A stretch of DNA of 64,000 bases. Source: Dichotomocladium elegans (taxonomy: Eukaryota; Mucoromycota; Mucoromycetes; Mucorales; Lichtheimiaceae). The stretch lies in the NCBI GenBank assembly GCA_025716815.1, contig JAIXMN010000043.1, positions 1-64,000 of the forward strand, written 5' to 3'. Under the pieces are notes generated by a model that searched no databases, was not told the origin of the DNA, and saw only the letters and a program-made list of their open reading frames with translations. Position numbers and translations under genes: made by a program. This document shows, one piece after another, positions 3,185-40,430 of the stretch; the first letter of the stretch is position 1; each line of letters starts with the position of its first letter.

Positions 3185-3202
3185 GTCAGGGACATGGTTT
3201 TC

Positions 3203-13864: not shown

Positions 13865-14230
13865 CAGGATTTTCAAGAAGAACTTTGCCACAAATTTTAG
13901 TTGTTCATATAGACGGTCTAGGTTTTTCGTTTTTTTTTGCTTCAAATTCGAATACAAATTTTAGTATTTCGTTGCTACCCTTTTGTCAAATTAAAAGGCA
14001 ATAGCAGCAAGAACATTTCAATCAAGTCTATAGATGAGTCTTCCTTCTCCTCTTTTTACACCAGAATAGTTTTGGGAGGCCAACCATTTATGTTTCATTC
14101 TAATTTCAAAGGAAGAAGAGAAACGAAATACTAAAATTTGTATTCGATTTTGAAGCAAAGAAAAACGAAAAACCTAGACCGTCTATACAAACAACTAAAA
14201 TTTGTGGCAAAGTTCTTCTTGAAAATCCTG
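13865..14230. mobile_element. 366-bp MITE, copy M3, inserted in integrase
   Basis: Identical in length to M1 and M2 and nearly identical to M2, but in the opposite orientation. TA duplications lie at 13863-13864 and 14231-14232. On the minus strand the flanks join as GTCGACTA|TACAACAAATTGG, restoring integrase residues VDYTTNW, the same residues seen uninterrupted in element A. This confirms the exact ends of the MITE and that it arrived after element B. Confidence 0.93.
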
Positions 14231-21828: not shown

Positions 21829-22180
21829 ATCACGCACTTTATCCTTTGTATCCAGTCCTTCTCACATTTCTTCTTTTTCCTCATTTTACTGTGGTTCTAG
21901 TCAAAATATATACAACTATTATCATCGGGTGTCAAAATCGTTATTATTACTGCTGTCGAAACAGGTAGTTAAACTATCAGTGCAATGTGCAACACTCTTT
22001 CCGTTGAGAAATCTCAATCATCCTTTTGTGAACCATTGATTTTATTCTCCCCAATTTCCTCTTTCTTCCTGATAAACTTCACATCACGTACCTCTACCTC
22101 AGTAAGCTATCCTTTTCACGATCGCTTATAGAGCATTACCCGCTTACTTATGACCACTGAATAGAGACGCGACATATAAC

Positions 22181-22439
22181 ATGACCAACGACGAACAACG
22201 TAGCTCCACTATGCAGATTGATACTTTGTCAGAGCGCGAAAGAGACGCGATCTACGCGCTGACTGGACAAATGAAGTCGTTTAGTTTCCAGGACGAGGAC
22301 GACGAACATCAACGTTAGTATCTTAGCAACTGACTTATGCTCATTTCAACTTACCTACCTTGTATCGATGACTATACCATTAAGTCCAAAGACAGGCCGA
22401 CCCCGGTATTCTTGCTGAGGAATACACCTTCAGCGTCGA
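22181..22439 (+). other. Possible upstream exons of the second transposase-like gene
   Basis: ATG at 22181 opens an acidic peptide (TNDEQRSSTMQIDTLSERER) ending at a donor GTTAGT near 22315, the same donor form as in the neighbouring transposase gene. A possible second exon follows an acceptor ATTAAG at about 22385 and ends at GTGAGT near 22440. The reading phases do not join cleanly to the ATG at 22483, so either an indel has occurred or these are not exons of that gene. Confidence 0.35.
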
Positions 22440-22482
22440 TAGTGAGTTAATGGGAAAAGAATCACGTGTGGAGAGCTTATAG

Positions 22483-23712
22483 ATGATGCACACAGACGAC
22501 CACGACATGGAGGAGACCCAAACAGCCGCTGCTGTCGAACCTATAGCTGCATCTGTTCGTCGAGTTCGTAGCAAGAAAGTGTCAGCCAGCAAAAGTTTGG
22601 CTGCACCAAAAACGGGCAACGTGTACAAGCGTGGTGACAAGACCAGGTACAAGCGTCACAATGCGGAAGTAGTCAAGGCGGCGATGGAGAAGCACATCAT
22701 GTGCAGTGTCCCGATGGCTAAAGCCGCCAAATCTGCGAATATGGCAGTGTCGACGTTTTCTGACCACCTCGCTCGTTACCAGTTGGAGCAAGAATCGCCT
22801 AAAAAGCGAGGCCCGAAAGCCAAGGCCCCATTTAGCAAGGCCCTGGTTAGATTGATCCTGGAATACGTTGACACTCACCCAGTTTGCGCTGTTGACGATG
22901 TGTTATCGCATTGCATGGATGAAGATATCGATGGGCTCCCTTCGCGCGTGCCACTGCAAAGATGGCTACAAAAGAACGCAAGAATCACGTTTCAGCGATT
23001 GAAAAGCTTTAATGTGGAGCGATCGATCGAAGCGGCGCAGGAGCACGAAAGGCAATTTAACCGATTGTCAGCCAGAGCTGAATTTGAACCTGACAAGAAT
23101 GTCGTGTTCGTCGCGGAAGTGGCATTCCTGGTGAATGGCCGGCGCATGTACCCAGCATGCTCCACAGAATCATCTTCGCAGACCGCCGATGTGGACGATA
23201 AAAAGCCACACTTGTGCCTTCTAATTGCGTTTGACCACACTGGCATTATAACCACAGCATCAAAATCTTTTGAAGGACGCGTCACCAAGGATGAATTTAT
23301 CCAATTTGTTGCTGACATTGTGGCGATTTTGGATGCCGAAAAATGGAAGAATCTGTTTCTTGGATTTGATCCTCTCCCTGCTGAGGTGGCAGCGCCAGTC
23401 TTTCAAAAAGCCGAGGAGAAGGGCCACACCCCTTTCATTTTTCCAGCACAGGAGTTGGCTTGGAACCCTGCTGAGTATTTGGTACGAGACTTGCTACTTT
23501 GCTGCAACCGACAGCTGTCGCCTGGGGAAGGCAAACAGTCGGCGATCGCTTTGATGCTGTCTTTGAATCCATGTCGCCATCAAAATGCGAAGACATATCT
23601 TCCTGGCATTTCCGTCTGCTTCAGATTAATAAAGGCATTTTGCTCATTTATTAAATACTCATACTCTACTCGGCTGTATATCCTGTCGACTTGTATACAT
23701 TCTTACGATTGA
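22483..23712 (+). CDS. Second transposase-like protein, degenerate DDE fold
   Basis: Open frame of 409 residues. The N-terminus is basic with a nuclear-localisation-like stretch (KKVSASK; RGDKTRYKRHN) and an HTH (VPMAKAAKSANMAVSTFSDH; KKRGPKAK). Residues from about 205 resemble a Tc1/mariner core: VVFVAEVAFLVNGRR sits where F-I-D-E is expected, FLGFDPLPAEVAAPVFQKAE where the second D region lies, and FIFPAQELAWNPAEYLVRDL matches the LPxYSPxLNPIE motif with its glutamate kept. The first catalytic aspartate reads alanine, so catalysis is unlikely. It may be a DNA-binding partner or regulator (inference). The last ~40 residues (KAFCSFIKYSY...) look like read-through. Confidence 0.6.
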   Translation: MMHTDDHDMEETQTAAAVEPIAASVRRVRSKKVSASKSLAAPKTGNVYKRGDKTRYKRHNAEVVKAAMEKHIMCSVPMAKAAKSANMAVSTFSDHLARYQLEQESPKKRGPKAKAPFSKALVRLILEYVDTHPVCAVDDVLSHCMDEDIDGLPSRVPLQRWLQKNARITFQRLKSFNVERSIEAAQEHERQFNRLSARAEFEPDKNVVFVAEVAFLVNGRRMYPACSTESSSQTADVDDKKPHLCLLIAFDHTGIITTASKSFEGRVTKDEFIQFVADIVAILDAEKWKNLFLGFDPLPAEVAAPVFQKAEEKGHTPFIFPAQELAWNPAEYLVRDLLLCCNRQLSPGEGKQSAIALMLSLNPCRHQNAKTYLPGISVCFRLIKAFCSFIKYSYSTRLYILSTCIHSYD

Positions 23713-23818
23713 GCATCTGTAGACACGGTAAAGCACCGTCCACTGTTTTCCTTGTACCAACCCACTGTCACGTTTAATCATAACATGTACGTAAAAAGGG
23801 CCATCCCGTCATGTTGAG

Positions 23819-25284
23819 GGATCTCTGGGAGTATAACATGCCACACTCTAAATATATATATCTATATATTACTATAATAATATATATGCTTGTGTTACAC
23901 AACATTGCCTATATATGTAAAATGGGTCGGGGAGTCCAAAAATGATCATTTCAAACCCCGATAACTATTGCACTTCCCTAGAAAACTTGTTTTTTCTTTG
24001 TTTTATCTATAAACACACCATACGATACTCCCTGAATGATTATGATCTATTTCTGGAAAACTTTTATAACTTGTCATTCATTTTTAGTAACTGAATCGAC
24101 CATTTTTCAGCAATTAATGACCATTTTTTTTCTTATGCCAATTTTACAATATTTTAGCTGCATAATTATAGCAATAAATACAGCAATCTTTATGTGAAAG
24201 TTGTCCCTACTATATTACGGTGATACAAAGCCTGTGAAACCTCAAAATCAAGGTGGATGACTGCCTCATCAATATATGTTTTTAAAGGCTCCCAAATCGT
24301 TCAGTCTGTGGAAGTGGTTAGGGTGTTAGGTAGGGAATGGAGAGGTTCTGGGTTCAACCCCCTGCTTTTTGCAATTTATACTGTACATGTATTTTTTAAT
24401 TCCTGGACCTCGGGTTCAGAGTGGAAAGGTCCTGGGTTCAATCCCCAGCCCTTGCAGCTTGCACTTTTTATTTTTCTAGAAAGTCTTGATGAAACGTAAT
24501 GTATGATCTCAGATTTGATTACTAATCGAATAAAAATATTACCCAATAGGAAATAATCATATGATAATCATATGATAATCACATGCTTATCTTGTGATAA
24601 TGTGTAGAACCTAGAAAAATGTATAAAATGCCATAATTTTCCTGCTTCACATATATCCCCTATTCTACTTGTATGTCTACTTCTACCACACTTACTATCG
24701 AAAGCTCCCTTACTTTCAAGGATATAGCACCTATTCTTTTAGACTGTGTTCAGCCATCAAAGTAAGTCATTAGAAGCAGTAATAGTTTATTATAGCTAAA
24801 GCATCTAAACTAGATGGCTACTTGATATTGGGGCCTTATATCCTGAGAAGTTCCACTCAGAGGGGTCCAAAATAGCTATAGTCTCACCTACTGGGAAAGC
24901 ACCACCCTTACAGAGGTGCTCTCTATAGCACCAGACATTGACAATAGGAAGTCGATATAACTATCTAACTGTTCAGCTCATATAGTAGTAGTAGGTACAG
25001 CAGTTGTAGCTGATCAGGAACTCAATGAAAGTGAGTATAGTGAGGAGGAAATCCTTCCTGTTAGCAAAAGAGTGTGAAACAGTAAATAAAAGAGCTATAC
25101 TAGAAAGGGAGAAGAAGCTGAAATCTAAAGACAAAGTGAAGTATATATGTGTCGGGGTTTAAAATATTGTTACACGATGCGCGTTATTTAGAGCTATCAG
25201 AATATATAATTTTTATGTTTGTAGCATGATTGGTGCACCATCTAGGTCAGATTGAAAGTGTGGTGTGCTATACTCCCATTCAGC
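23819..25284. mobile_element. 1466-bp non-autonomous DNA transposon with 9-bp TSD
   Basis: Bounded by the direct repeat CATGTTGAG. Its own ends are imperfect inverted repeats: TGGGAGTATAACATGCCACA on the left and the complement of TGTGGTGTGCTATACTCCCA on the right. It is very AT-rich and has no transposase frame. A 9-bp duplication with short TIRs fits Mutator-like elements best (8 bp would suggest hAT). It contains a tRNA-like promoter segment at 24296-24480, described separately. Confidence 0.75.
24296..24480 (+). ncRNA. tRNA-derived SINE-like segment with Pol III boxes
   Basis: GTGGTTAGGGTGTTAGG resembles a tRNA A box and GGGTTCAACCCC (about 24350) a B box, spaced about 40 bp as in tRNA promoters. 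A second B-box-like GGTCCTGGGTTCAATCCCCA lies at about 24428 after a partial repeat of the unit. The anticodon-arm region does not fold like an intact tRNA, so this is a tRNA-related SINE head or decayed tRNA and not a functional tRNA. Expression is not shown. Confidence 0.4.
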
Positions 25285-26335
25285 CATGTTGAGAGATAGC
25301 AACGTAAGAACAATATTTCAGGGCACTAGAGGATGCATGTTAGCCATTTTCTATGGCATTGTATCAGAGACACTCACCCATACCGCCTCCATGTAATTCA
25401 AACTTGTGTTTACAACTATATAGGTAAATCTCTGGAGTAATGCTGTTTGATCCAATAGTGTTAACAAGCATGCGGACATACTATATGACATTCCCCGCCA
25501 ATGCGTTTACAAGAACACAAATCAACGACTTTGCTGCCATGAAATCAGAGCTTTAGCTGCTTGTAAAATGTGCCGGGATGAAAGCGATTTGTGGCAGGGA
25601 GGAGCGTAGGCATTTATCCCATTATTGTAGCAATACTATGTCGGCTGAGAACTCGTGCGGAATTTGGGAGTGAAACGTTCAGGACGGTGATGAAGGGAAG
25701 GGAACACATATTTTCCGTTCTACTTCCCACAAGTAAAAATAGTAAAATTTTTCGGCAGTCGCGTTTTTCTTTTAGCTCCAATCCCTCGCCTGTAATTGAC
25801 ACCTCCATTCGACCTGCTCAATCACTAGTGGAGAAACTAAAAATAACTGTACCCATGCGAGTGCATTACAGAAGCATAGCGAGTTTAGCTCCTTTCCGAA
25901 TAAAAGCCATCTTCTTTCCGAACAACATTGCACGATTTCGAATTGTATATACAACTGCGATTATTTAAAGACTTCGTCCGAATGCTCTCAGTGGACGATT
26001 ACAGTAAATCGAGGGACGTTTTGCGGATAACGGAGTGCAGGCTTCCGAATGAAATGTCTGTCAGAGAACGAATGAATCAAATCCTCAAGTTCGAAAGAAA
26101 GCTTGTCGCCTGTCCAAAAAATTAAGTTCTCCAAGGACGAAAAAAAATTGTGAGGATTTCCGAAAAATTCGGTTCTTGTTTCTGGATAAACCTTGAACCT
26201 GACCATGAAAAATCAAGTCGAGCTTTCCGAGTTATCGCAACACCATATCCGATTTTCACTTTCTAGTTTCCGGATAACTATCACCATGTCCGAAAAACTT
26301 TTAGAAAATGCAAACTTCTTGTGAAAAGTCCTGTA

Positions 26336-26411
26336 AATCAATCGGTTCTAGTCCTGGGGTTCGGTATTCTTGAAATGCTCGGTTGTTCACAGATGGATCA
26401 TTAAAAGGCAT
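26336..26411 (-). pseudogene. Element B gag N-terminus, displaced by the 8.6-kb insertion
   Basis: On the minus strand ATG at 26411 opens MPFNDPSVNNRAFQEYRTPG then LEPID, ending at the TA (26334-26335) where the large transposon begins. After removal of the insert it joins directly to LSDDEPPF at 17748, giving one continuous gag frame. This proves the insertion site and supplies the true gag start. Confidence 0.8.
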
Positions 26412-26454
26412 CAGCTACCAATTGTCGTTATCGTATGGCTGATCAGATCAGTGG

Positions 26455-26959
26455 CCAGTGATAATACTTTTGATATTGCTGTGTAAAGTGATGATCCTTT
26501 ATTCCTGACTACTCATGCTATATATATATATATATATACTGCTATCAGTTATTCTATGAATGATGTGGAAGACACTAGTAAAAGAGCTTCTAGCAAATGC
26601 CATTGTCGAAGGAAGGAAAAGGAGAAGATTCTAGAAGGAGCCAGCAAAAGCTGTTATTGTCGGCTATACTTCTTTATCCTTTTGACGAGATCACATGATC
26701 CTGATCCATGATTCCACGACATTCCTTTTTCCTTGATATTCCTTTACACATCACACACAGTCACAGCTTTCCATCACTTTCCCTTTCCCTTCGTTTCTAG
26801 AATCTACATCTCCCGCACATATATAAGAACATGTTGTATTCTAAAATAAACCATCATCTTCATCTCTCGCAAAAAGTCATCTTCTATCATTTGTTGTCCT
26901 GGCCTTGCTTTGCAGCCATTCTTGATTACGACATTATATGCAGTCACATGACTACGACA
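26455..26959 (-). repeat. Element B 5' LTR
   Basis: Starts TGTCGTAGTCATGTGACTGC at complement 26959, matching the 3' LTR start at complement 12971. It includes a (TA)n microsatellite at 26520-26539 and shares ACTAGTGTCTTCCACATCAT (one mismatch) with 12823-12971. The inner edge is not certain; the untranslated leader lies between the LTR and the gag start at 26411. The outer edge is only 31 bp from the tRNA-Glu 3' end. Confidence 0.65.
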
Positions 26960-26969
26960 CTACGACACC

Positions 26970-26977
26970 AACAAAAA
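26970..26977 (-). terminator. Pol III oligo-T terminator of tRNA-Glu
   Basis: On the minus strand the sequence after the tRNA 3' end reads ...TTGTTTTTGTTGG, giving a T5 run suited to Pol III termination, between the tRNA and the LTR of element B. Confidence 0.6.
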
Positions 26978-26990
26978 CAATATAACACTG

Positions 26991-27062
26991 TTCCCCCACC
27001 GGGAATTGAACCCGGGCCACCGGTGTGAGAGACCGGGATCCTAGCCACTAGACCATAGAGGA
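26991..27062 (-). tRNA. tRNA-Glu (anticodon CTC)
   Basis: The minus strand folds as a 72-nt tRNA. Acceptor TCCTCTA pairs with TGGGGGA (two G-T pairs), D arm GTCTAGTGGCTAGGA, anticodon stem CCGGT/ACCGG with loop CTCTCAC (anticodon CTC), and T arm CCGGGTTCAATTCCCGG; discriminator base A. A and B boxes match Pol III consensus (TGGTCTAGTGG; GGTTCAATTCC). A TTTTT terminator lies about 15 bp past the 3' end. No intron. The first 16 nt of this gene recur at every LINE junction downstream. Confidence 0.95.
27047..27062 (+). repeat. 16-bp LINE target repeat in tRNA-Glu (copy 1 of 4)
   Basis: ACTAGACCATAGAGGA is the complement of tRNA-Glu nucleotides 1-16. Identical 16-mers occur at 27489-27504, 32745-32760 and 38029-38044, each exactly between two LINE units, so this is the target site duplicated on each insertion. 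Confidence 0.93.
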
Positions 27063-27488
27063 ATGCGCTACCCAAGCGCGCTCATGGATTGAAGCAAGGC
27101 CATTGGCGACGTACGTGGCCTATGCTTCTTTCCGCGCTTCGGGATGTGGACACTTGCTGTCATCCTGACGCAGAATTTGACAGTGAACCTCCTCAAGGGC
27201 TTGCCCTTGAAGAGTTCTTCACCCGCACTACTTCCGACGCCGATTAACGGCTGTCCTCTTTTCGCTTCTTTGTCCGTGTAGCTTAGCTCCCATTCTTACT
27301 TGTCCCCTCTTCCTCATCTCTTTCTCTCTTCCCTGCACGCAGGTTTTTTCGTCCCTGATGGGTTTTTCCTGTGATCACTCCCTCACTTATATCTATTTAA
27401 TACTCCCCCTCCACCCCCTTATCATTACTGGCCGGTAGATTGCCTAATGGATGCTACCTTTACGAGCCATAGAATAAATAATCTTTGA
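27063..27488 (+). mobile_element. LINE unit L1, 5'-truncated
   Basis: Begins ATGCGCTACCCAAGCGCGC directly after the tRNA gene and matches the 3' end of L2 (from 32318) and L3: the last ~55 codons of ORF2 and the 3' UTR with the shared end CATAGAATAAATAATCTTTGA. It is followed by the 16-bp tRNA-derived repeat. A 5' truncation and a target duplication are signs of target-primed reverse transcription. Confidence 0.92.
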
Positions 27489-27504
27489 ACTAGACCATAG
27501 AGGA
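27489..27504 (+). repeat. 16-bp LINE target repeat (copy 2 of 4)
   Basis: ACTAGACCATAGAGGA, identical to tRNA-Glu complement positions 1-16, lying between L1 and L2. Confidence 0.93.
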
Positions 27505-27609
27505 GAGACCTTGTCGAGCATCGCGCGCGGCGAATTCAAGCTCTTTTTATATTTTCAAATTTGTCACGTGATTACCCCTATCTTATCGGATCGACAATTT
27601 CACCATTAA

Positions 27610-29128
27610 TTGCGAACACGTTGGAAAGCTCTAAAACAAATCAAGAACCACCTGCATCACCCCCGACGCCCCCCTACATCGTTATCGAAGCGGAAAGGAT
27701 CGGCAGACCTTCCTAAAGCATCAAAAATCCCGCAGATAAAGAAAATCAGGGGCACCCAAACACCTGGCCCCATGCCTAATCCGCCCACAAGCAGTGTGCG
27801 TAGCACTCGCCCCTCGCCGGCTGCTCCCGCAACCACCCGCCCCTCTCGCCAGGCGTCACGTTCGCCTACCCGACGCGTAGCAACACCTGCTCGTGCAAAT
27901 GCGCGAGCCCGAACACCAGAGGTTGTTGCAATCGGCAGCACCTCAGACACTGTTGACTCTGTCACTGGCCTGGAGATCTGCAGTCTCACCGACCTCGACC
28001 CGCAGCCCTTGCCTCTGAACCTCCCTGCATGGGCTAGCGCCATGGAACGCCGCTTGAACGAACAGGAGCGCGCAATTGCTGAGCAAAAGGAGTTTTCAGC
28101 CGAACTTGCACGTGTGCTTGCACATAATAAGCAGCTCGAGGCGGAACTAAACGCCGCAAATTGCTGATTGCCGATCTGCAAGGCCAACTTGCCGAAACCA
28201 CCCGTGTGTCTCCCCCCAGCGGGTAATGCCTATTGTTGAAGAGGCAATGGAAGTCGACCCCCGTGGCACGGCCGCATCACGTTGGGCAATGGCAACCACG
28301 CCACCACCAGCCAATGCACAACCAAAAGCGCATACCACACCAACCGCAGCTACAACTGGCGCTACACCACAACCAAGCCAGCTAGCAAGCCCTTCTTCTT
28401 GGGCAACCGTGGCTAAGAAAAATGCAGGCCGCCCACCCGCCGCGCGCGCCCAAACCTACCTCCACCCCACCCGCGCCATGGTCGCTGGGCTGGCCGTGGT
28501 TCCAGCCACACGCAGAGGCCAGAAGACCGGATATACTTTGTGTACCTGGCCAGTACATTCGCATGGCCCATAGCGATGTGCGCAACCGCTTCGCATTCTT
28601 GGTGTCAATCAGGCACGAGTGATTGACATCATTTCCCCACCAAAGGGATAGTCGGGCTGCTCGTCCACTGCTCTTATGAGAGGAACTCCTAGAATGCCTG
28701 AAAAGGGCGGCATCTCCCCCGTCCCCTTCGATCCCATCTCGGCCTCGAACCTCATGGATCCCCAGTGGGATACGCTCTCCTCCGCCGACAAGGCATCCAA
28801 GGCCGCCGACCTTCACCAACGTCGGATTCTGCGCACCTGTTTGGCCACCCACAAGGCGCATGTGGGCCGTGCCATTGCTCACTTTTTCGCCGACCCCGGC
28901 TATGTGGGACCGCATGCTCTGCCCGCCGCATTGCTTGCGGAATTCAACAAGGAACGGCCAGCACCAGTGCGCCGCCACAAGGTGCTTTCACAATCCGCTG
29001 CAGCTGCCGGCTTTCTCGGTACCAGCCCGCCCGCCAGGGAGGACGGCGACGACGACATGGGCGAGGCGATTGCGCAGGACGCCATAACGGACACCAGGAA
29101 CAACAGCCAGTTTCCGCTTCGACAATAA
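27610..29128 (+). pseudogene. LINE L2 ORF1, frameshifted
   Basis: Text matching L3 ORF1 is split over three frames: 27610-28167 (TSLSKRKGSADLPKASKIPQ; a coiled-coil ERRLNEQERAIAEQKEFSAE), a frame around 28226-28573, and 28676-29128 (DLHQRRILRTCLATHKAHVG). The breaks come from single-base losses in C-runs and small deletions. Codon 1 is unclear, as in L3. ORF1 proteins of LINEs bind the element RNA. Confidence 0.8.
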
Positions 29129-29131
29129 TTA

Positions 29132-32100
29132 ATGTGTGATCAGCTCACGATTGCACAACTCAATGCATCAGGCATCGATCGCTCGCCTGATGAGTTGATT
29201 AATTATTGTTTAGAAGAAAATGTAGATATATTATTATTAACGGAAACTTACCTCACTCAAGGCACACTCACAACATCATGGGCGCAATTTCACAACTATG
29301 CGCGGATTCCAGGCAACGCGAGAAGGGGCTTTGGCGGGCTATCGCTCCTGATCCGTCCTGGCTTCCCTTTCCATGTTCATCTACATCAACACCCCAATGA
29401 GTACACCATATCATGCTCTATTGGGCCACTCACGCTCCACGGACTCTACCTCCCACCATCACTCGACCTCGCCACATACACGTCCATCATCAACCGCCTC
29501 CCGATCGACCGCAACACCATCGTATTCGGAGATCTCAACACTCGCCTCGGCAACCAGCTAGGCGATCACGACACCAACCCCCGCGCCCCGGCATTTCACG
29601 ACTGGCTTATCAGTCATGGCCTCCACGTCTGGAACGAAACATTGGCGCATGGTAAGGCCACCTACTACCAGCCCAATGTTGGCCACAGCATCATCGATCT
29701 CTTTGTGTCGCAGACCGATGCCGTCGTCGCACCTTCGCTCACTGTGCGCGACGATCTGTCGCTGAGCTCCGACCACCATCTGTGCGTGTTCCGTTTCTTC
29801 ACAGCAATGGCAGTGCCCAGACTGCCTGCTGCAAACGCGCCTCGCCAACACTGGAAACTCCAGCGCTTGAAAGAACCCGATGTCCTGGAACTCTACGTGT
29901 CCAAATTCACCCAACACGTAGAGCCCCTCCAAGAAGATATCCGCACGTGTGCCGAGCAAGAGTTTGTCGACGTCGATGGGATTGAGAGGATCGGCGAGCG
30001 GCTGACTAGCTGCATCTACGCGGCGCTGGATGAGAGTGTCACACGCGGCACAATCCGTCCCAAGCATTGGAAGTGGTTCTGGTCCGACGACCTGCAGAAG
30101 CTTGCTGATGTACGACAGCACAAATACCAGCAGTGGCTGCGTGCACCAAACACCATCGACCGGGCTCGTCATTGGGAGGCCTATACTGCGGCTCGAACCT
30201 CCCTCCGGGTCGCCATCCGCCGTGCTCGTTCGCAACAGTGGAAACTGTTTTGCCAGCGGATGCAGCACCACAGTTCCAGCGAGGCAAACAGTGTCGTAAA
30301 GCGCATGCGGCGAAACCGCACACCGTCGACTGTCTTCTCCCACCCTGCTGGTCCTGATCATGCCGCGAGACCATGATCACCCATCTCGCTGGCGTCTTTG
30401 GCGGTGATGATCCTCGTCCTCCCCCTCATCGTCATGATCACCTCGACGATGTTGGTTCATCCCCCTTCCCTGTGAATCGACTTGTCCGTGTCATTCGCAA
30501 GGAAGTTCCCGCACGCAAGGCGCCTGGTTCCGACCATATTACCGGCGCCATGCTTAAGCCCATTGCACGCCCCCTTGCTCTGGTGCTTTCCCCCTTCCTC
30601 GCACTCTGCTGGCGATGGTCGCACGTACCACGGCAATGGCGTACAGCCCAGGTCGTCCCGATCCACAAGAAAGGCGACCCTACCCTTGCCGCAAATTACC
30701 GACCAATCAGTCTCACGAGCACATTCCGCAAGCTCATTGAGCGATGCCTCTTGCCTGACATCCTGCAAGAAATGCCTCCCTCGATGTCGCGCAAGGTGGA
30801 TTCCGCTCTCGTCGCGGTGCTCTTGACCAGGCCTTCAACTTGCAAGTGTTGATGCGCCAATATCGCCGCGAATTCCGCAGCTCGCCGGTTGTCGCATTCC
30901 TCGACATCAAGTCGGCATATGACTCTGTTGATCGGCAGGTCATATGGGATGCACTATCCGATCACTTGCGCCCACCCCTCCTCGAGCTGGTTCGACACTT
31001 GTTCAACGACGTGCATGTGTCGGTCATCCTCCAGAACTTTGAATCACGTTCGATCCGTCCCAGGCGAGGCGTCCTACAAGGCTCGATCCTCAGCCCCATC
31101 CTATACGCCGTGTTCATCGACAGCCTGCCAAAGACACTGCGTCTCGGCATCTCTCGTCCTTTGATGATCCGTGCTGTACCGTCTGCTGGTCAGACCGAGG
31201 CCTCCGTTCAGCTGTTGCCTCGTTTGCAGCTACGCGATCCTGAACGCTCCGACACCGAGATTGTTCCGATCAACTCGCTGCTTTACGCAGATGATGTCGC
31301 CATCTTTGGCTCATCCGACGAGGTCCGTTTGCTCTTGGCCATGTGCGAACTCCACTCCTCCCGCCTTGGCTACCGCTGGCATCCTAACAAGTGTACGATT
31401 GTTAATGGCGATCCTCAAGTCCATTATCGCCTGTACGGGGAGAACATCGAGCAAGTGCCTTGGTTTAAATACCTTGGCATCCCTTTCAACGCCAACGGTA
31501 TTGACACCATCCGCATGGTGCAGACCAACGCCACCAAGACCACTGCCGCCATGTCGCTTCTGCATGCGCTGGGCGCTCATCAGTACGGCTTCGGCTTGGG
31601 TGTTTCCCTCCGGTTGTACCGTACCTTCATTCGGCCAATTCTTGAGTACGGGCTCGCCATCATCACGTTGACTGCCGCGAATCGTCACACGCTCGAAACG
31701 GCCCAGAAGCGCTGCATTCGCCTGGCGCTGAATGTCACTGACCCGCTCGCGACCACGCCCACGATAATGCCGCTGCACCTTGCTGCATTGCCGTCCATGG
31801 CATTCCGCGCTCGCATTCTGGTGTTCAAGTTCCTTTGCCGCGCATATTCTGTGCCTCCGTCGACATTGTTGGCCTGTCTCGTCACTTGTTTTCTGCGGCG
31901 TCACCACCCCGTGGAATTGTGGAATAACCTGACGAACAATGCGCTCTGGCGCGACCACAAAATTTTGACCCGCCAAGCCCCCCTTCCGCATGACCCGATG
32001 ACGCATATCCTGGACCATCATTTTGACCTGGAGCTTACGTCACGTCGCACAAAGTTTTCCTCTGTGGCCCGTGCACTGGAGGAATGGCGCTTTGATCCGA

Positions 32101-32537
32101 TCCTGCATCTGCCAGCCAGCAACCTCGCCCGGCACCGTCTCGTCAAGTGGCGGATGCACTGGTTACCACCGCACCCCCTCAAGACCTGCCGTTGTGGGGT
32201 GACCGCCAGCCGACGGCACTTTATCACTTGCGATCTCGTTGGCCCGATGATCCAGCTCCTGCAAGAGAGCTTTCCTGGCCCCGTTGGCGATGATCAGCAT
32301 CCTCTTGATGCGATCATGAATGCGCTACCCAAGCGCGCTCATGGATTGAAGCAAGGCCATTGGCGACGTACGTGGCCTATGCTTCTTTCCGCGCTTCGGG
32401 ATGTAGACACTTGCTGTCATCCTGACGCAGAATTTGACAGTGAACCTCCTCAAGGCTTGCCCTTGAAGAGTTCTTCACCCGCACTACTTCCGACGCCGAT
32501 TAACGGCTGTCCTCTTTTCGCTTCTTTGTCCGTGTAG
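29132..32537 (+). pseudogene. LINE L2 ORF2 (endonuclease-RT), frameshifted
   Basis: Three frames: 29132-30376 gives the APE-type endonuclease (ITLLTET-like VDILLLTETYLTQG, VFGDLNTRLGNQLGDHDTNP, LSLSSDHHLCVFRF). Frame 30373-30852 has the RT fingers (KAPGSDHITGAMLKPIARPL, ANYRPISLTSTFRKLIERCL). Frame 30840-32537 has the palm (VVAFLDIKSAYDSVDRQVIW, SLLYADDVAIFGSSDEVRLL) and the C-terminal C-R-C-G...H-F-I-T-C zinc-binding motif. The two 1-nt losses at about 30366 and 30780 break it; the last ~20 residues are also shifted. Start ATG overlaps the ORF1 stop as TAATG. Confidence 0.88.
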
Positions 32538-32744
32538 CTTAGCTCCCATTCTTACTTGTCCCCTCTTCCTCATCTCTTTCTCTCTTCCCTGCACGCAGGT
32601 TTTTTCGTCCCTGATGGGTTTTTCCTGTGATCACTCCCTCACTTATATCTATTTAATACTCCCCCTCCACCCCCTTATCATTACTGGCCGGTAGATTGCC
32701 TAATGGATGCTACCTTTACGAGCCATAGAATAAATAATCTTTGA

Positions 32745-32760
32745 ACTAGACCATAGAGGA
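32745..32760 (+). repeat. 16-bp LINE target repeat (copy 3 of 4)
   Basis: ACTAGACCATAGAGGA between L2 and L3, identical to the tRNA-Glu 5' end complement. Confidence 0.93.
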
Positions 32761-33030
32761 GAGACCTTGTCGAGCATCGCGCGCGGCGAATTCAAGCTCT
32801 TTTTATATTTTCCAAATTTGTCACGTGATTACCCCTATCTTATCGGATCGACAATTTCACCGTTAATTGCGAACACGTTGGAAAGCTCTAAAACAAATCA
32901 AGAACCACCTGCATCACCCCCCGACGCCCCCCCTACATCGTTATCGAAGCGGAAAGGATCGGCAGACCTTCCTAAAGCATCAAAAATCCCGCAGATAAAG
33001 AAAATCAGGGGCACCCAAACACCTGGCCCC

Positions 33031-34413
33031 ATGCCTAATCCACCCACAAGCAGCGTGCGTAGCACTCGCCCCTCGCCGGCTGCTCCCGCAACCACCCGCC
33101 CCTCTCGCCAGGCGTCACGTTCGCCTACCCGACGCGTAGCAACACCTGCTCGTGCAAATGCGCGAGCCCGAACACCAGAGGCTGTTGCAATTGGCAGCAC
33201 TTCAGACACTGTTGACTCTGTCACTGGCCTGGAGATCTGCAGTCTCACCGACCTCGACCCGCAGCCCTTGCCTCTGAACCTCCCTGCATGGGCTAGCGCC
33301 ATGGAACGCCGCTTGAACGAACAGGAGCGCGCAATTGCTGAGCAAAAGGAGTTTTCAACCGAACTTGCACGTGTGCTTGCACATAATAAGCAGCTCGAGG
33401 CGGAACTAAACGCCGCCAAAGTACTGATTGCCGATCTGCAAGGCCAACTTGCCGAAACCACCCGTGTGTCTCCCCCCAGCATGGGTAATGCTTCTATTGT
33501 TGAAGAGGCAATGGAAGTCGACCCCCGTGGCACGGCCGCATCACGTTGGGCAATGGCAACCACACCACCACCAGCCAATGCACAACCAAAAGCGCATACC
33601 ACACCAACCGCAGCTACAACTGGCGCTACACCCACAACCAAGCCAGCTAGCCATAGCCCTTCTTCTTGGGCAACCGTGGCTAAGAAAAATGCAGGCCGCC
33701 CCACCCGCCGCGCGGCGCCCAAACCTACCTCCACTCCCACCCGCGCCATGGTCGCCTGGGCTGGCCGTGGTTTCCAGCCACACGCAGAGGGCCAGAAGAC
33801 CGGATATACTTTTGTGTACCTGGCCAGTACATTCCGGATGGCCCATAGCGATGTGCGCAACCGCTTGCACATTCTTGGTGTCAATCAGGCACGAGTGATT
33901 GACATTCATTTCCCCACCAAAGGGATAGTCGGGCTGCTCGTCCACTGCTCTTATGAGGAGGAACTCCTAGAATGCCTGAAAAAGGGCGGCATTTTCCCTG
34001 TCACCTTTGATCCCCTCTCGGCATCAAATATTATGGATCCCCAATGGGACACACTCTCTCCTGCGGACAAAGCGGTAAAGGCGGTTGACCTTCACCAACG
34101 TCGGATCCTGCGCACCTGTCTGGCAACCCACAAGGCGCATGTAGGTCGTGCCGTTGCTCACTTTTTTGCTGACCCCAGCTATACGGGACCGCATGTTCTG
34201 CCCGCCACATTGCTTGCAGAACTTAACAAGCAACGCCCACCACCTATGCGCCGACAAAAAGCAATCTTACCATCCACAGCAGCTTCTAGCTTCATCGGAC
34301 CGATCCAGCAAACCAGGGAGGACGGTGACGATGTCATGGAGGAGACAATTGCGCAGGACGCCACAACCGACACCCCGAACAACAGCCCAGTTTCCGCTTC
34401 GACCAATAATTAA
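33031..34413 (+). CDS. LINE L3 ORF1 protein
   Basis: From the first in-frame ATG (33031) the protein has 460 residues; the frame is open upstream to 32767 but without ATG, so a non-AUG start cannot be excluded. The order is a Pro/Ala/Arg/Ser-rich basic N-terminus (SPTRRVATPARANARARTPE), a coiled coil around ERRLNEQERAIAEQKEFSTE to KQLEAELNAAKVLIADLQGQ, a Thr/Pro-rich linker, a globular part (GYTFVYLASTFRMAHSDVRN, LHILGVNQARVIDIHFPTKG, LHQRRILRTCLATHKAHVGR) and an acidic tail. No CCHC knuckle is seen. By analogy with LINE ORF1 proteins it should bind RNA as a coiled-coil oligomer (inference). Confidence 0.8.
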   Translation: MPNPPTSSVRSTRPSPAAPATTRPSRQASRSPTRRVATPARANARARTPEAVAIGSTSDTVDSVTGLEICSLTDLDPQPLPLNLPAWASAMERRLNEQERAIAEQKEFSTELARVLAHNKQLEAELNAAKVLIADLQGQLAETTRVSPPSMGNASIVEEAMEVDPRGTAASRWAMATTPPPANAQPKAHTTPTAATTGATPTTKPASHSPSSWATVAKKNAGRPTRRAAPKPTSTPTRAMVAWAGRGFQPHAEGQKTGYTFVYLASTFRMAHSDVRNRLHILGVNQARVIDIHFPTKGIVGLLVHCSYEEELLECLKKGGIFPVTFDPLSASNIMDPQWDTLSPADKAVKAVDLHQRRILRTCLATHKAHVGRAVAHFFADPSYTGPHVLPATLLAELNKQRPPPMRRQKAILPSTAASSFIGPIQQTREDGDDVMEETIAQDATTDTPNNSPVSASTNN

Positions 34414-37400
34414 TGTGTGATCAGCTCACGATTGCACAACTCAATGCATCAGGCATCGATCGCTCGCCTGATGAGTTGATTAATTATTGTTTAGAAGAAA
34501 ATGTAGATATATTATTATTAACGGAAACTTACCTCACTCAAGGCACACTCACAACATCATGGGCGCAATTTCACAACTATGCGCGGATTCCAGGCAACGC
34601 GAGAAGGGGCTTTGGCGGGCTATCGCTCCTGATCCGTCCTGGCTTCCCTTTCCATGTTCATCTACATCAACACCCCAATGAGTACACCATATCATGCTCT
34701 ATTGGGCCACTCACGCTCCACGGACTCTACCTCCCACCATCACTCGACCTCGCCACATACACGTCCATCATCAACCGCCTCCCAATCGACAGCAACACCA
34801 TCGTATTCGGAGATCTCAACACTCGCCTCGGCAACCAGCTAGGCGATCACGACACCAACCCCCGCGCCCCGGCATTTCACGACTGGCTTATCAGTCATGG
34901 CCTCCACGTCTGGAACGAAACATTGGCGCATGGTAAGGCCACCTACTACCAGCCCAATGTTGGCCACAGCATCATCGATCTCTTTGTGTCGCAGACCGAT
35001 GCCGTCGTCGCACCTTCGCTCACTGTGCGCGACGATCTGTCGCTGAGCTCCGACCACCATCTGTGCGTGTTCCGTTTCTTCACAGCAATGGCAGTGCCCA
35101 GACTGCCTGCTGCAAACGCGCCTCGCCAACACTGGAAACTCCAGCGCTTGAAAGAACCCGATGTCCTGGAACTCTACGTGTCCAAATTCACCCAACACGT
35201 AGAGCCCCTCCAAGAAGATATCCGCACGTGTGCCGAGCAAGAGTTTGTCGACGTCGATGGGATTGAGAGGATCGGCGAGCGGCTGACTAGCTGCATCTAC
35301 GCGGCGCTGGATGAGAGTGTCACACGCGGCACAATCCGTCCCAAGCATTGGAAGTGGTTCTGGTCCGACGACCTGCAGAAGCTTGCTGATGTACGACAGC
35401 ACAAATACCAGCAGTGGCTGCGTGCACCAAACACCATCGACCGGGCTCGTCATTGGGAGGCCTATACTGCGGCTCGAACCTCCCTCCGGGTCGCCATCCG
35501 CCGTGCTCGTTCGCAACAGTGGAAACTGTTTTGCCAGCGGATGCAGCACCACAGTTCCAGCGAGGCAAACAGTGTCGTAAAGCGCATGCGGCGAAACCGC
35601 ACACCGTCGACTGTCTTCTCCCACCCTGCTGGTCCTGATCATGCCGCCGAGACCATGATCACCCATCTCGCTGGCGTCTTTGGCGGTGATGATCCTCGTC
35701 CTCCCCTCATCGTCATGATCACCTCGACGATGTTGGTTCATCCCCCTTCCCTGTGAATCGACTTGTCCGTGTCATTCGCAAGGAAGTTCCCGCACGCAAG
35801 GCGCCTGGTTCCGACCATATTACCGGCGCCATGCTTAAGCCCATTGCACGCCCCCTTGCTCTGGTGCTTTCCCCCTTCCTCGCACTCTGCTGGCGATGGT
35901 CGCACGTACCACGGCAATGGCGTACAGCCCAGGTCGTCCCGATCCACAAGAAAGGCGACCCTACCCTTGCCGCAAATTACCGACCAATCAGTCTCACGAG
36001 CACATTCCGCAAGCTCATTGAGCGATGCCTCTTGCCTGACATCCTGCAAGAAATGCCTCCCCTCGATGTCGCGCAAGGTGGATTCCGCTCTCGTCGCGGT
36101 GCTCTTGACCAGGCCTTCAACTTGCAAGTGTTGATGCGCCAATATCGCCGCGAATTCCGCAGCTCGCCGGTTGTCGCATTCCTCGACATCAAGTCGGCAT
36201 ATGACTCTGTTGATCGGCAGGTCATATGGGACGCACTATCCGATCACCTCCGCCCACCCCTCCTCGAGCTGGTCCGCCACCTTTTCAACGACGTGCAGGT
36301 GTCGGTCATCCTCCAGAACTTTGAGTCACGTTCGATCCGTCCCAGGCGAGGCGTCCTACAAGGCTCGATCCTCAGCCCCATCCTATACGCCGTGTTCATC
36401 GACAGCCTGCCAAAGACGTTGCGTCTTGGCATCTCTCGTCCTCTGATGATCCGTGCTGTACCGTCTGCTGGTCAGACCGAGGCATCTGTCCAGCTGTTGC
36501 CTCGTTTGCAGCTACGTGATCCTGAACGCTCCGATACCGAGATTGTCCCGATCAACTCGCTGCTCTACGCAGATGATGTCGCCATCTTTGGCTCATCCGA
36601 CGAAGTCCGTTTGCTGTTGGCCATGTGCGAACTCCACTCCTCCCGCCTTGGTTACCGCTGGCACCCAAACAAGTGCACGATCGTGAACGGCGATCCTCAC
36701 GTCCACTATCGCCTATATGGAGAAAATATTGCACAAGTGCCTTGGTTTAAATACCTTGGCATCCCCTTCAACGCCAACGGTATTGACACCACCCGCATGA
36801 TACAGACCAACGCCACCAAGACCACTGCCGCCATGTCGCTTCTGCATGCGCTTGGCGCTCATCAGTACGGCTTCGGCTTGGGTGTCACACTCCGGCTGTA
36901 CCGTACCTTCATCCGCCCTATTCTTGAATACGGGCTCGCCATTATCACGCTGACTGCTGCACAGCGTCATACGCTTGAGGCGGCTCAGAGACGTTGCATT
37001 CGCCTGGCGCTGAACGTTACTGACCCGCTAGCGACCACGCCGACGATAATGCCGTTGCATCTTGGGGCATTGCCGTCCATGACATTCCGCGCTCGCATTC
37101 TGGTGTTCAAGTTCCTTTGCCGCGCATATTCTGTGCCTCCGTCGACATTGTTGGCCTGTCTCGTCACTTGTTTTCTGCGGCGTCACCACCCCGTGGAATT
37201 GTGGAATAACCTGACGAACAATGCGCTCTGGCGCGACCACAAAATTTTGACCCGCCAAGCCCCCCTTCCGCATGACCCGATGACGCATATCCTGGACCAT
37301 CATTTTGACCTGGAGCTTACGTCACGTCGCACAAAGTTTTCCTCTGTGGCCCGTGCACTGGAGGAATGGCGCTTTGATCCGATCCTGCATCTGCCAGCCA

Positions 37401-37786
37401 GCAACCTCGCCCGGCACCGTCTCGTCAAGTGGCGGATGCACTGGTTACCACCGCACCCCCTCAAGACCTGCCGTTGTGGGGTGACCGCCAGCCGACGGCA
37501 CTTTATCACTTGCGATCTCGTTGGCCCGATGATCCAGCTCCTGCAAGAGAGCTTTCCTGGCCCCGTTGGCGATGATCAGCATCCTCTTGATGCGATCATG
37601 AATGCGCTACCCAAGCGCGCTCATGGATTGAAGCAAGGCCATTGGCGACGTACGTGGCCTATGCTTCTTTCTGCGCTTCGGGATGTAGACACTTGCTGTC
37701 ATCCTGACGCAGAATTTGACAGTGAACCTCCTCAAGGACTTGCCCTTGAAGAGTTCTTCACCCGCACTGCTTCCGACGCCGATTAA
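34413..37786 (+). pseudogene. LINE L3 ORF2: APE endonuclease-reverse transcriptase, one frameshift
   Basis: Frame 34413-35756 encodes the endonuclease with TIAQLNASGIDRSPDELINY, LLLTETYLTQG (catalytic E), FGDLNTRLG (D/N) and SSDHHLCVF (D/H). Frame 35753-37786 encodes the RT with fingers ANYRPISLTSTFRKLIERCL, palm FLDIKSAYDSVDR and LLYADDVAIFG (YADD), thumb, and a C-terminal motif CRCGVTASRRHFITCDLVG. A run of four C at about 35703, where L2 has five, separates the halves, so full activity needs a frameshift or is lost. APE-type endonucleases nick the target to prime reverse transcription. ATG overlaps the ORF1 stop (TAATG). Confidence 0.9.
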
Positions 37787-38028
37787 CGGCTGTCCTCCTT
37801 TCGCTTCTTTGTCCGTGTAGCTTAGCTCCCATTCTTACTTGTCCCCTCTTCCTCATCTCTTTCTCTCTTCCCTGCACGCAGGTTTTTTTCGTCCCTGATG
37901 GGTTTTTCCTGTGATCACTCCTTCACTTATATCTATTTAATACTCCCCCTCCACCCCCTTATCATTACTGGCCGGTAGATTGCCTAATGGATGCTACCTT
38001 TACGAGCCATAGAATAAATAATCTTTGA

Positions 38029-38044
38029 ACTAGACCATAGAGGA
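38029..38044 (+). repeat. 16-bp LINE target repeat (copy 4 of 4)
   Basis: ACTAGACCATAGAGGA between L3 and the degraded unit L4. Confidence 0.93.
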
Positions 38045-40430
38045 GAGACCTTGTCTAGCATCGCGCGCGGCGAATTCAAGCTCTTTTTATATTTTTCAAA
38101 TTTGTCACGTGATTACCCCTATCTTATCGGATCGACAATTTCACCGTTAATTGCGAACACGTTGGAAAGCTCTAAAACAAATCAAGAACCACCTGCATCA
38201 CCCTCCGACGTCCCTTCTACATCGTTATCGAAGCGGAAAGGATCGTCAGACCTCCCTAAATCGTCAAAGATTCCTCTTTCGAAGAAAATTAGGGATACCA
38301 AAACATCAGGCGACATGCCTAATCCACCTATTAGCAGCGTGCGGAAAACACGCCCCTCGCCTGCTTCTTCTGCAATTACCCGGCCCGCTCGTCAGGCAAC
38401 CCAATCGCCCACAAGGCGTGAGGCAACACCGGTTTGTGCAAATGCATGAGCCCAAACACCTGAGTGTGGTGTTTTAGTTGTTTTTTTAAGTTGGACAGTT
38501 AGAATATGATGAGACTCGTGGATGCCTTTTATTCGAATGAAATCGGAATCAAGATCCTCCATCGCTACACATTTATCTACTATTTATATGATTTATGGGA
38601 GAGGTCCTAATTAGGTCAACTGGCTACTCCGTATTACACGGGTACTCGGAGATGGTAGCACTATTACAGATACGGTGCTTGTGTGTGTATCGGTGACCTC
38701 TGTCATAGATTATGCGTCCTTGTTCCTTTCAGACCATCCTCACGTCTGTAAAACCTCATAAAAACCCAATGGGAGAAAAATAGAGGGAAAAAGACTGTGA
38801 AAATGGATCCTTCAATCCATAATCACCTATGCGACACCAAGCGCTGGAAGTGGTTTGGTCCGACGACCTACAGAAGCTTGCTGATGCGCGGCAGCACAAA
38901 TACCAGCAGCGGCTACGCGCACCAAACACAAGCGACCGGCCTCGCCTTTGGGAGGCCTATACCGCGGTTCGAGCCTCCCTTCATGTTGCCATCCGGCGTA
39001 CCCGCTCGCAACAGTAGAAGGTGTTCGCCAGAAAAATGTAGCACCATAGCTCCAGCGAGACAAAGAATAGTGTCATGGGTATGCGACCTAAGCTCACATT
39101 GTAAATTGCTTTCTCCCATCCTGGTCGTCCTAATTACGCTATCAAGATCATGATCAGTACATTTTGCTGGTGTTTATGGTGGGTAATGATCCACATCCGT
39201 TTCGATGATGATGTTTCCTCGTTCCTCTGCATTATGAATCGATTTGTCCATGTCATCCGTAAGGAAGTTACCGTACGCGAGGCGTCTGGTTCTGATCATA
39301 TCATCGGCGCTATCTTAAGCACATTGTACGCCCACTTCCCCCTTCGAGCTTCTCCCCGATACCCGTTTAACGATGTTATGTGTCGGTCTTCCTTCAGAAT
39401 TTTGAAACGCACTCGATCGGTACACAGAAATAAGTTTTACAAGGTGCGCTCCTTCTACACTCTGTTCATTGATGATCTGTGCTGTGCTGACAACCTGTCA
39501 GGCTGAGACCTCAGTCCAGCTATTGCCTAGTTTGCAGCTATGTAATCCTGCACGTTCCGATACAGAGATCATCTCGATTAAATCGTTGCTATATGCAGAT
39601 GGTGTACGTACCATTTTTGTCTGACGCAACGAATTACATTTGCTGGTGGTCATATGCAAATGGTGGAACCCGAATAACTGCACGATAAAGGATGGCAGCA
39701 TCTCCAGTTCCAATATCGTCTGTATATCGGTGGGGAGAGGGGTGGTTGTTGAGCAAGTGCCTTTGTTTAATCCCTCGGCATACCTTTCAGACCCTAATGA
39801 TATCAATACTGCCCGCACATGGCCTAGACCAACGCCACCAGGATCATAACCTCCATGGGTGTTCATACATGGGCATGGCAATCAACTATACGATTTTGGC
39901 TTGAGCGTCTCGCCCAACCCGCCCTCGAATATGGGTTCGCAGTCTATCACGCTGACCAGTGCGCATCCTTACGCGCTTGAGATGGCCATTCAGCGCTACA
40001 TTCTGGTGTTCACGTACCTTTGCCGTAATCATCCTGTCCGATTATCAACATTACTGTTATGTCTTGTCACTTGCTTTCGGCGGTGGCACCACTATCGACT
40101 CGAATAATTCGTTTCTGGCAACGACCAAAACTTTTAGCCCACCAAATCTTCAACATGATCTCGATCTTGCCGCTGGCTCTCCGCACCATTTTCAAGTAGG
40201 GGTCTAATCTGGGACGGTGACATATGCATTATATACAAACAAGTGCATGCTGTTACCTCGTTCATGCAGCTGGTTCGTTTGCGCTGCGGATGTTGCATGC
40301 AAACAACATCTCCCCATGGGCATTGTGTTGCTTGATCTGCGTGATTTTCTTCCTCTCTCGCCGACTCAATGCTCCACCCCACCTTCATCATTAATACGAT
40401 GGCGTTATGAGTGACATAGTCTAGAATGTC
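38045..40430 (+). mobile_element. LINE unit L4, old and degraded
   Basis: Begins GAGACCTTGTCTAGCATCGC right after the 16-bp repeat, and its first ~415 bp match L2/L3 ORF1 with many substitutions, reaching a stop at 38447. From 38829 it resumes as decayed ORF2 (CGCTGGAAGTGGTTTGGTCC parallels 30066) with fragments of the RT region to about 40150. Large internal deletions and an LTR-like insert (38463-38820) separate the parts. No 3' end or downstream 16-bp repeat was found. Being the most diverged and the farthest from the tRNA, it is the oldest unit. Confidence 0.8.
38463..38820 (+). repeat. LTR-like insert within LINE L4
   Basis: About 360 bp with no LINE similarity splits L4. Its 3' part (AGACCATCCTCACGTCTGTA onward, 38730-38812) matches 11913-11985, part of the LTR of chromovirus element D. 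Probably a solo LTR or LTR fragment of that family; its precise edges and target duplication are unclear. Confidence 0.45.

Follow-up and report, generated by a model that had tools for sequence, protein, structure and literature searches.

LINE insertion at the first base of tRNA genes in the fungus Dichotomocladium elegans

The tRNA-Glu locus and its LINE array

The stretch analyzed here, called the window in what follows, comprises the first 64,000 nucleotides of contig JAIXMN010000043.1 (assembly GCA_025716815.1) of the Mucorales fungus Dichotomocladium elegans and contains an array of long interspersed nuclear elements (LINEs) beside a tRNA-Glu(CTC) gene. This gene, the single tRNA gene that ARAGORN detects in the window, is complete and lies at positions 26990 to 27062 on the minus strand, with what we take to be its RNA polymerase III (Pol III) A box at 27045 to 27055 of the same strand. 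The 16-mer ACTAGACCATAGAGGA, which is the complement of tRNA-Glu(CTC) nucleotides 1 to 16, occurs exactly four times in the window, at 27047, 27489, 32745, and 38029, and the number stays at four when up to two mismatches are allowed, versus 0.02 expected from shuffled sequences. A preliminary description of this DNA had correctly recognized these repeats. One tRNA-derived repeat stands at each junction of the array, and its duplicated part, as discussed below, measures 14 bp; the plus-strand copies of this target repeat are located at 27049 to 27062 (within the tRNA gene, where it corresponds to nucleotides 1 to 14), 27491 to 27504, 32747 to 32760, and 38031 to 38044.

Following the tRNA gene, the array consists of a 5′-truncated unit (L1), two units with both ends (L2 and L3), and an old remnant (L4), all on the plus strand. 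The units are thus arranged head to tail and run opposite to the tRNA, not in its orientation as had been described. L1 (27063 to 27490, ~430 bp) retains the 3′ end only, begins at about unit position 4840 to 4844, and is 98.4% identical to L3 by blastn. L3 (32761 to 38030, ~5.27 kb) starts with a conserved 5′ terminus (32761 to 32811, GAGACCTTGTCGAGCATCG..., with a TATA stretch near +44), for which no Rfam ribozyme match was found at an E value of up to 1 in the interval 32745 to 33000, so that a ribozyme of known type at this terminus was rejected; the first 60 nucleotides show no unusual fold (z of 0.28). The first open reading frame (ORF1; open frame at 32767 to 34413, approximate start) has no Pfam match. 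ORF2 is divided between two frames in both L2 and L3. In L3, its first part (34413 to 35756) carries an apurinic/apyrimidinic (AP)-endonuclease-type domain (Exo_endo_phos_2 and Exo_endo_phos; PF14529 and PF03372), while its second part (35753 to 37786) contains the reverse transcriptase (RVT_1; PF00078) and a C-terminal region. A Pfam scan of L3 ORF2 revealed no endonuclease domain other than the AP type, and the second part gave no RNase H match at an E value of up to 0.01. In a sequence search of solved structures, the reverse transcriptase part matched R2 and LINE-1 proteins, and nothing resembled the endonuclease part at an E value of up to 0.001.

L2 (27505 to 32746, ~5.24 kb) has broken frames, with the endonuclease part of ORF2, corresponding to the endonuclease region of L3, open at 29132 to 30376 and the reverse transcriptase part open at 30840 to 32537. 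L2 and L3 are 96.6% identical over 5,239 aligned bases, many single-base indels being present in L2. L4, delimited by blastn at 38045 to 40092 with an uncertain end, is 85% identical to L3 over unit positions 1 to 420 and 67 to 75% identical internally, and no 3′ end was seen in it. The preliminary description had likewise given a similarity of ~97% for L2 and L3 and called L4 old. The elements are non-long-terminal-repeat (non-LTR) retrotransposons of the AP-endonuclease class: in addition to the reverse transcriptase and AP-type domains in ORF2, they display a constant 3′ end (the last 40 nucleotides are alike at 12 of 12 ends in the genome), 5′ truncation (L1), and target duplication.

LINE insertion sites in the genome

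The host assembly (39.4 Mb, 122 contigs, designated C1 and so on below) was searched for related copies; since these searches score only the best candidates, all copy numbers are lower bounds. Using the 3′-terminal 229 bp of L3 as a query, we found 12 places, at each of which the constant 3′ end leads into the complement of a tRNA 5′ end: tRNA-Glu(CTC) in 7 cases, tRNA-Glu(TTC) in 3, and tRNA-Asp in 2. That all 12 located 3′ ends abut tRNA-Glu or tRNA-Asp 5′ sequence bears out the proposal of a sequence-specific LINE that enters at the 5′ boundary of the tRNA, keeps the gene complete, and regenerates its target. The target had been named as tRNA-Glu(CTC), which is indeed used; tRNA-Glu(TTC) and tRNA-Asp are used too, and related families occupy many other tRNAs. 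The exact 16-mer ACTAGACCATAGAGGA has 16 copies in the genome, compared with none for the reversed sequence, and these represent the 5′ ends of 9 tRNA-Glu(CTC) genes and 7 array junctions. Seven of the 9 genes have a LINE at nucleotide 1, while those on C1 and C42 have none; on C45, 7 extra bases separate the tRNA-Glu(CTC) gene from the LINE. When the near-identical pairs C58/C61 and C74/C95 are each counted once, a LINE is present at 5 of 7 tRNA-Glu(CTC) genes.

To count insertions with a query blind to tRNA sequence, we used the first 19 bases of the element, which are common to related families, and allowed up to two mismatches. This search returned 53 element 5′ ends, versus 1 for the reversed pattern, belonging to the window's family (Glu/Asp, 19) and to two families, A (18) and B (16), whose ORF2 is ~51 to 55% identical to that of the window's family. 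The exact complement of tRNA nucleotides 1 to 14 lies upstream of all 53, as identified by script for 52 and by inspection for 1 (C95:17058, where the preceding 14 nucleotides are the tRNA-Tyr start CCGAGCTTAGCTCA). Among the 52 scripted cases, the gap between this sequence and the element is 0 nucleotides in 48, 1 nucleotide in 3, and 7 nucleotides in 1. A complete tRNA gene predicted by ARAGORN adjoins 29 of the 53 5′ ends and represents one of eleven kinds (Glu-CTC, 5; Glu-TTC, 2; Asp, 2; Asn, 4; Met, 1; Ile, 5; Phe, 2; Thr-AGT, 4; Thr-CGT, 1; Lys, 2; Tyr, 1); the remaining 24 are array junctions.

Counting by 3′ ends, which also catches truncated copies, placed 10 of 11 family A ends (8 exact, 2 with one mismatch) at tRNA 5′ sequence and 18 of 21 family C ends (11 exact, 7 with 1 to 3 mismatches) at tRNA-Val sequence. 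As a control, 20,000 14-mers from the window were compared with tRNA starts, yielding no exact match and 67 within 4 mismatches. More distant families contributed 20 predicted 5′ ends, of which 6 are within 0 to 4 nucleotides of a tRNA 5′ end (3 Val, 1 Ser, and 2 Gln, one of the Gln copies being 5′ truncated), 1 is at a partial tRNA-Val, 1 is thirteen bp from a tRNA-Pro, and 4 are in tandem. On the whole, insertions of this LINE group are nearly confined to the first base of tRNA genes, and the tRNA is left whole.

Target duplication and cut site

A target duplication of 16 bp had been suggested for the window array. The duplicated segment is 14 bp long, and the last bases of the 16-mer belong to the element, given that the 3′ junction bases opposite tRNA nucleotides 15 to 17 follow the element and not the target. 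The Glu family reads AAC where the target reads CAC; subfamily B1 has GAC at Asn, Met, and Lys genes, and B2 has AAT at Asn and Ile genes; family A has GAC at Phe, Thr, and Lys genes and GAT in older copies. Nucleotide 15 differs from the target at no fewer than 7 junctions (C13 twice, C68, C77, C55, C65, and C63), which rules out the 16-bp repeat as the target duplication. Because nucleotide 15 follows the element, the primer would have ended at nucleotide 14, and the first nick would fall after A14 within the Pol III A box (27049/27048 in the window), with the second cut at nucleotide 1.

The five youngest family A copies are 99 to 100% identical over 200 bp and are found at tRNA-Phe, tRNA-Thr(AGT) (twice), tRNA-Thr(CGT), and tRNA-Lys genes. 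Each copy is preceded by its own tRNA at the 5′ end and followed by the corresponding 14 bp at the 3′ end; on C60 and C63, an older unit follows the young copy. Targeting by read-through of donor sequence, which was considered because the 3′ junction bases differ from the target, is ruled out by the near-identity of these copies at Phe, Thr, and Lys genes. At most, the terminal bases of the element could help priming.

According to our own reading of the junction flanks, each family has its version of target nucleotides 8 to 14: TRGCTCA for family A, TRGCKCA for B, TRGTNYA for Glu/Asp, TGGTGTA for C, TGGCCGA for the Ser family, and TGATGTA for the Gln family. A family C copy on C55 lies outside any tRNA and is flanked by the 14-bp repeat TACATGACCATTAC, with the target strand ending in ATGTA; the LINE copy beside tRNA-Pro also follows ATGTA and has a repeat of ~13 bp. 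The ATGTA of the non-tRNA family C sites resembles the GTGTA of tRNA-Val. Together with the A-box versions of the families, these off-tRNA sites favor reading of the DNA by the endonuclease, which Pol III factors may assist.

Insertion mechanism and array growth

Considering these data, the window array very probably belongs to a group of AP-endonuclease LINEs that target tRNA genes through a nick in the A box, with a 14-bp stagger and renewed landing pads. The ORF2 endonuclease would nick the tRNA sense strand after A14, inside the A box, and the freed 3′ end would prime reverse transcription of the LINE RNA (target-primed reverse transcription), while the other strand would be cleaved at tRNA nucleotide 1, at a distance of 14 bp. 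The expected product is a whole tRNA gene followed by the LINE and a second copy of tRNA nucleotides 1 to 14, so the tRNA would never be interrupted and every insertion would leave a new 14-bp landing pad, allowing later copies to insert either at the tRNA or at any of the pads. Each family would accept tRNAs with its own version of A-box nucleotides 8 to 14. The insertion positions, 14-bp repeats, constant 3′ ends, intact tRNA genes, and an array of mixed families can be read directly from the assembly; from them we infer the strand order of the cuts and the choice of target by the endonuclease itself.

Arrays grow through repeated insertion. The array on C55 consists of a tRNA-Ile gene and then, in order, a unit of family B, 14 bp, and a unit of family A; it holds two families side by side and hence cannot have been made by duplication of one unit. 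L2 is closest to a copy on C45 (99.6%) and L3 to a copy on C78 (99.5% over 4,142 bases), each being closer to copies elsewhere than to one another (96.6%). The mixed array and the kinship of L2 and L3 agree with the repeated insertion events over time that had been proposed.

Several observations weigh against the proposed mechanism of targeting and array growth. The 3′ ends are off target or undecided in 1 of 11 cases in family A and 3 of 21 in family C, and among the 20 predicted 5′ ends of the distant families, 5 are without a tRNA or undecided and 3, of the D type, lie at the ends of other repeats. On its own, the 7-bp A-box core is far too common to account for the selectivity, to which Pol III factors or chromatin may contribute. 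L2 and L3 are 99 to 100% identical in unit windows 1750 to 3250 and 4500 to 5250 and only 82 to 91% identical in other stretches, which indicates that conversion or recombination has acted. Lastly, the repeat type changes between neighbors in four arrays (C13, C95, C21, and C58), pointing to ectopic recombination or mis-assembly.

The commonness of the A-box core, the strong preference for tRNA genes, and the tethering to tRNA genes that is known for other elements (PMC5911963) would be in line with a LINE protein that binds the Pol III machinery, the insertion position being set by protein geometry instead of endonuclease reading of the DNA. We consider this unlikely, given that insertion occurs at one fixed base and not in a window, that the families divide by A-box letters 11 to 13 (in our reading), and that the family C copy away from tRNAs and the copy by tRNA-Pro both follow ATGTA with 14- and ~13-bp repeats.

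The array could also be derived from tandem duplication, by unequal crossing-over, of one LINE beside the tRNA, with the repeats copied along. Such an origin is very improbable, even if the nearly identical stretches of L2 and L3 and the switches of repeat type, which point to recombination between arrays, speak for it. Separate tRNA genes on many contigs bear a LINE at the same base, and L1 is independently 5′ truncated; the two families on C55, the closer relatives of L2 and L3 on other contigs, and the many separate tRNA sites rule out tandem duplication as the main origin. The preliminary description had named duplication of a single unit as a finding that would overturn it; this does not hold for the units as a whole, as judged by the C45 and C78 copies, even though L2 and L3 have long stretches of 99 to 100% identity in common.

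That the junctions are largely assembly artefacts, with LINE contigs wrongly joined to tRNA flanks, is barely credible: the perfect match, apart from 6 gap openings, of C58:1-5051 to window positions 22003 to 27062 (0 mismatches), the 99.7% identity of C74 and C95 over 4.9 kb, the single-base indels of L2 relative to L3, and the repeat-type switches are compatible with it, whereas junctions occur on many contigs with different tRNA flanks, some longer than 1 Mb (C13, C35, C68, and C79), and the matching tRNA and 14-bp repeat accompany each of the five youngest family A copies. In a comparison of C58:1-15777 with window positions 22003 to 37836, a common 5-kb flank precedes arrays that diverge. 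This likeness may reflect an assembly duplicate, a chimera, or a very recent rearrangement, and as the flanks are equal while the arrays differ, the general result is not based on C58 or the window locus.

Relatives and families at other targets

Among the best 120 matches, the named relatives of ORF2 are from Mucoromycota (Lichtheimia, Circinella, Umbelopsis, Mucor, Rhizopus, and Absidia), with a best identity of 60%. Relatives' DNA was not found in viral contigs. We constructed a reverse transcriptase tree from ten regions of the D. elegans genome and 16 database relatives, rooted at the midpoint for drawing and comprising no standard LINE clades. Each of the two main branches contains tRNA-targeting families, the first those of Gln, Glu/Asp, A, and B and the second those of Val and Ser, and elements of the six named genera lie among them. 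In the simplest reading of this tree, the tRNA-targeting habit would be older than these families.

Contig C97 (33 kb; loci L053, L084, L085, L173, and L174) contains several tandem units of a further family, E, whose junction repeats resemble a tRNA 5′ end (GGTGCCGGTGTA...). No such tRNA was found outside C97, and a degenerate 14-mer made from the family E junctions matched only on C97, at 4 places, versus 12 for the reversed-pattern control.

A family D LINE begins at the 5′ end of a sequence resembling the hepatitis delta virus (HDV) ribozyme (locus L082:260-338; C31:494639-494717). The full length of the locus aligns with the HDV ribozyme model at 34.3 bits (E value of 0.0035), below the cutoff of 50. 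The genome holds 23 such subthreshold matches, and two prokaryote controls also matched below the cutoff. Several of the matches form outward-facing pairs 10.5 to 12 kb apart (C1, C28, C30, C31, and C37), and the ends of a large repeat carrying an HDV-like ribozyme may be the target of family D. Its sister family D2 is located at the end of another repeat, not a tRNA, at L083, L086, and L092 (C31:737 kb, C68:178 kb, and C43:92 kb); the target repeat occurs at 39 places in a DNA search, and the junction repeat is ~15 bp. In this lineage, the targets seem to have changed from tRNAs to other multicopy sequences.

Other mobile elements in the window include a piece of a reverse transcriptase/RNase H/integrase polyprotein (14106 to 15953), a weak DDE_3 match (22483 to 23712), and a DDE_Tnp_4 transposase (59976 to 61274).

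The upstream flank of the tRNA genes

The body of the tRNA gene remains intact, and the LINE 5′ end takes the place of the upstream flank. The first ~45 nucleotides of this 5′ end are similar among families Glu, A, and B. In the direction of the tRNA, it has TATA at about −42 to −47 in these three families, and families Glu and E have a CACGTG located between about −52 and −66. The 5′ ends of families A and B are without CACGTG, and family C has TGACGTCA instead. Among 38 tRNAs without a LINE at nucleotide 1 (one mitochondrial-looking gene on C12 was left out), 12 have CACGTG within the upstream 110 bases, starting at −60 to −74 in 8.

Under the proposed mechanism, the tRNA would stay expressed and the insertion would be harmless. 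We tentatively propose, as a possibility short of an even chance, that A-box targeting is ancestral in a large clade of Mucoromycota LINEs and that the LINE 5′ end replaces the lost tRNA promoter. The motifs could equally be the LINE's own promoter. If the proposal is true, the insertion would cost the host nothing, and the LINE would retain a site that is constantly renewed.

Several LINE-free tRNAs have common repeated sequences upstream that end ~5 to 20 bp before the tRNA (the C42 tRNA-Glu, L122, and L130; L104, L106, and L131; L110, L112, L121, and L128), as if other, perhaps LTR, elements also target tRNA genes.

Discussion

NeSL-related non-LTR elements are likewise specific for tRNA genes and include NeSL-1_TV (tRNA-Pro), LIN15_SM (tRNA-Arg), and LIN25_SM (tRNA-Glu) (PMC4640811). 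Insertion of the kind seen in the window had been thought possibly undescribed; with LIN25_SM in print, a tRNA-Glu target as such is not new. In contrast to the restriction-type endonuclease of the NeSL clade (PMC4640811), the elements described here carry an AP-type enzyme, reside in a fungus, and form related families on many tRNAs. No report of a radiation of AP-endonuclease fungal LINEs on the A box was found in the literature searched, the scope of which excluded most subscription papers and Repbase, nor did that literature contain a paper on tRNA-targeting LINEs in Mucoromycota.

NLTR-A of Dictyostelium purpureum is also a non-LTR element with an AP endonuclease that is found just upstream of tRNA genes (PMC5006619, PMC5911963). 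It is inserted 2 to 6 bp upstream of the mature tRNA, as opposed to nucleotide 1 here, and carries an RNase H domain, while none was found in the window LINE; the available portions of its descriptions mention no 14-bp tRNA repeat or arrays (PMC5006619, PMC5911963). TRE5-A and TRE3-A of Dictyostelium discoideum, again tRNA-gene-targeted non-LTR elements with an AP endonuclease, use a window of 40 to 54 bp upstream or 40 to 150 bp downstream (PMC5911963), unlike the 48 of 52 insertions at 0 nucleotides observed here. Binding of the TRE5 ORF1 protein to TFIIIB is reported in the same source, and tethering has been proposed for TRE5-A (PMC5911963).

Dada DNA transposons likewise occupy exact positions in several tRNA kinds, some of them in the A box; they differ in employing a DDE transposase and in making 6- to 7-bp duplications inside the gene body (PMC3706591, PMC8869645), as compared to reverse transcriptase/endonuclease and 14 bp in D. 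elegans. R1 and R2 (28S rDNA) and Keno and Utopia (U2 snRNA) are also sequence-specific LINEs of multicopy RNA genes, with occasional tandem insertion in U2 genes for Utopia-1_NVit (PMC4640811, PMC3706591). R1 and R2 insertion interrupts the rRNA gene (PMC4640811, PMC3706591), whereas the tRNA is kept whole here. Among the sequence-specific LINEs of small RNA genes, those of D. elegans are characterized by an exact geometry and an apparent history of A-box changes.

The D. elegans families constitute an apparent natural series in which LINE endonucleases have moved between tRNA A boxes while the cutting geometry (a 14-bp stagger and nucleotide 1) was kept. With such a series, one can test in what way LINEs with an AP endonuclease recognize DNA sequence and how a parasite continues to insert into a compact genome while doing little damage. 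A site of this kind, short, renewable, and present in all eukaryotes, is also of interest for targeted gene insertion. For genome annotation, the mechanism proposed here would account for the LINE arrays found next to tRNA genes in D. elegans, and similar arrays are predicted in its relatives.

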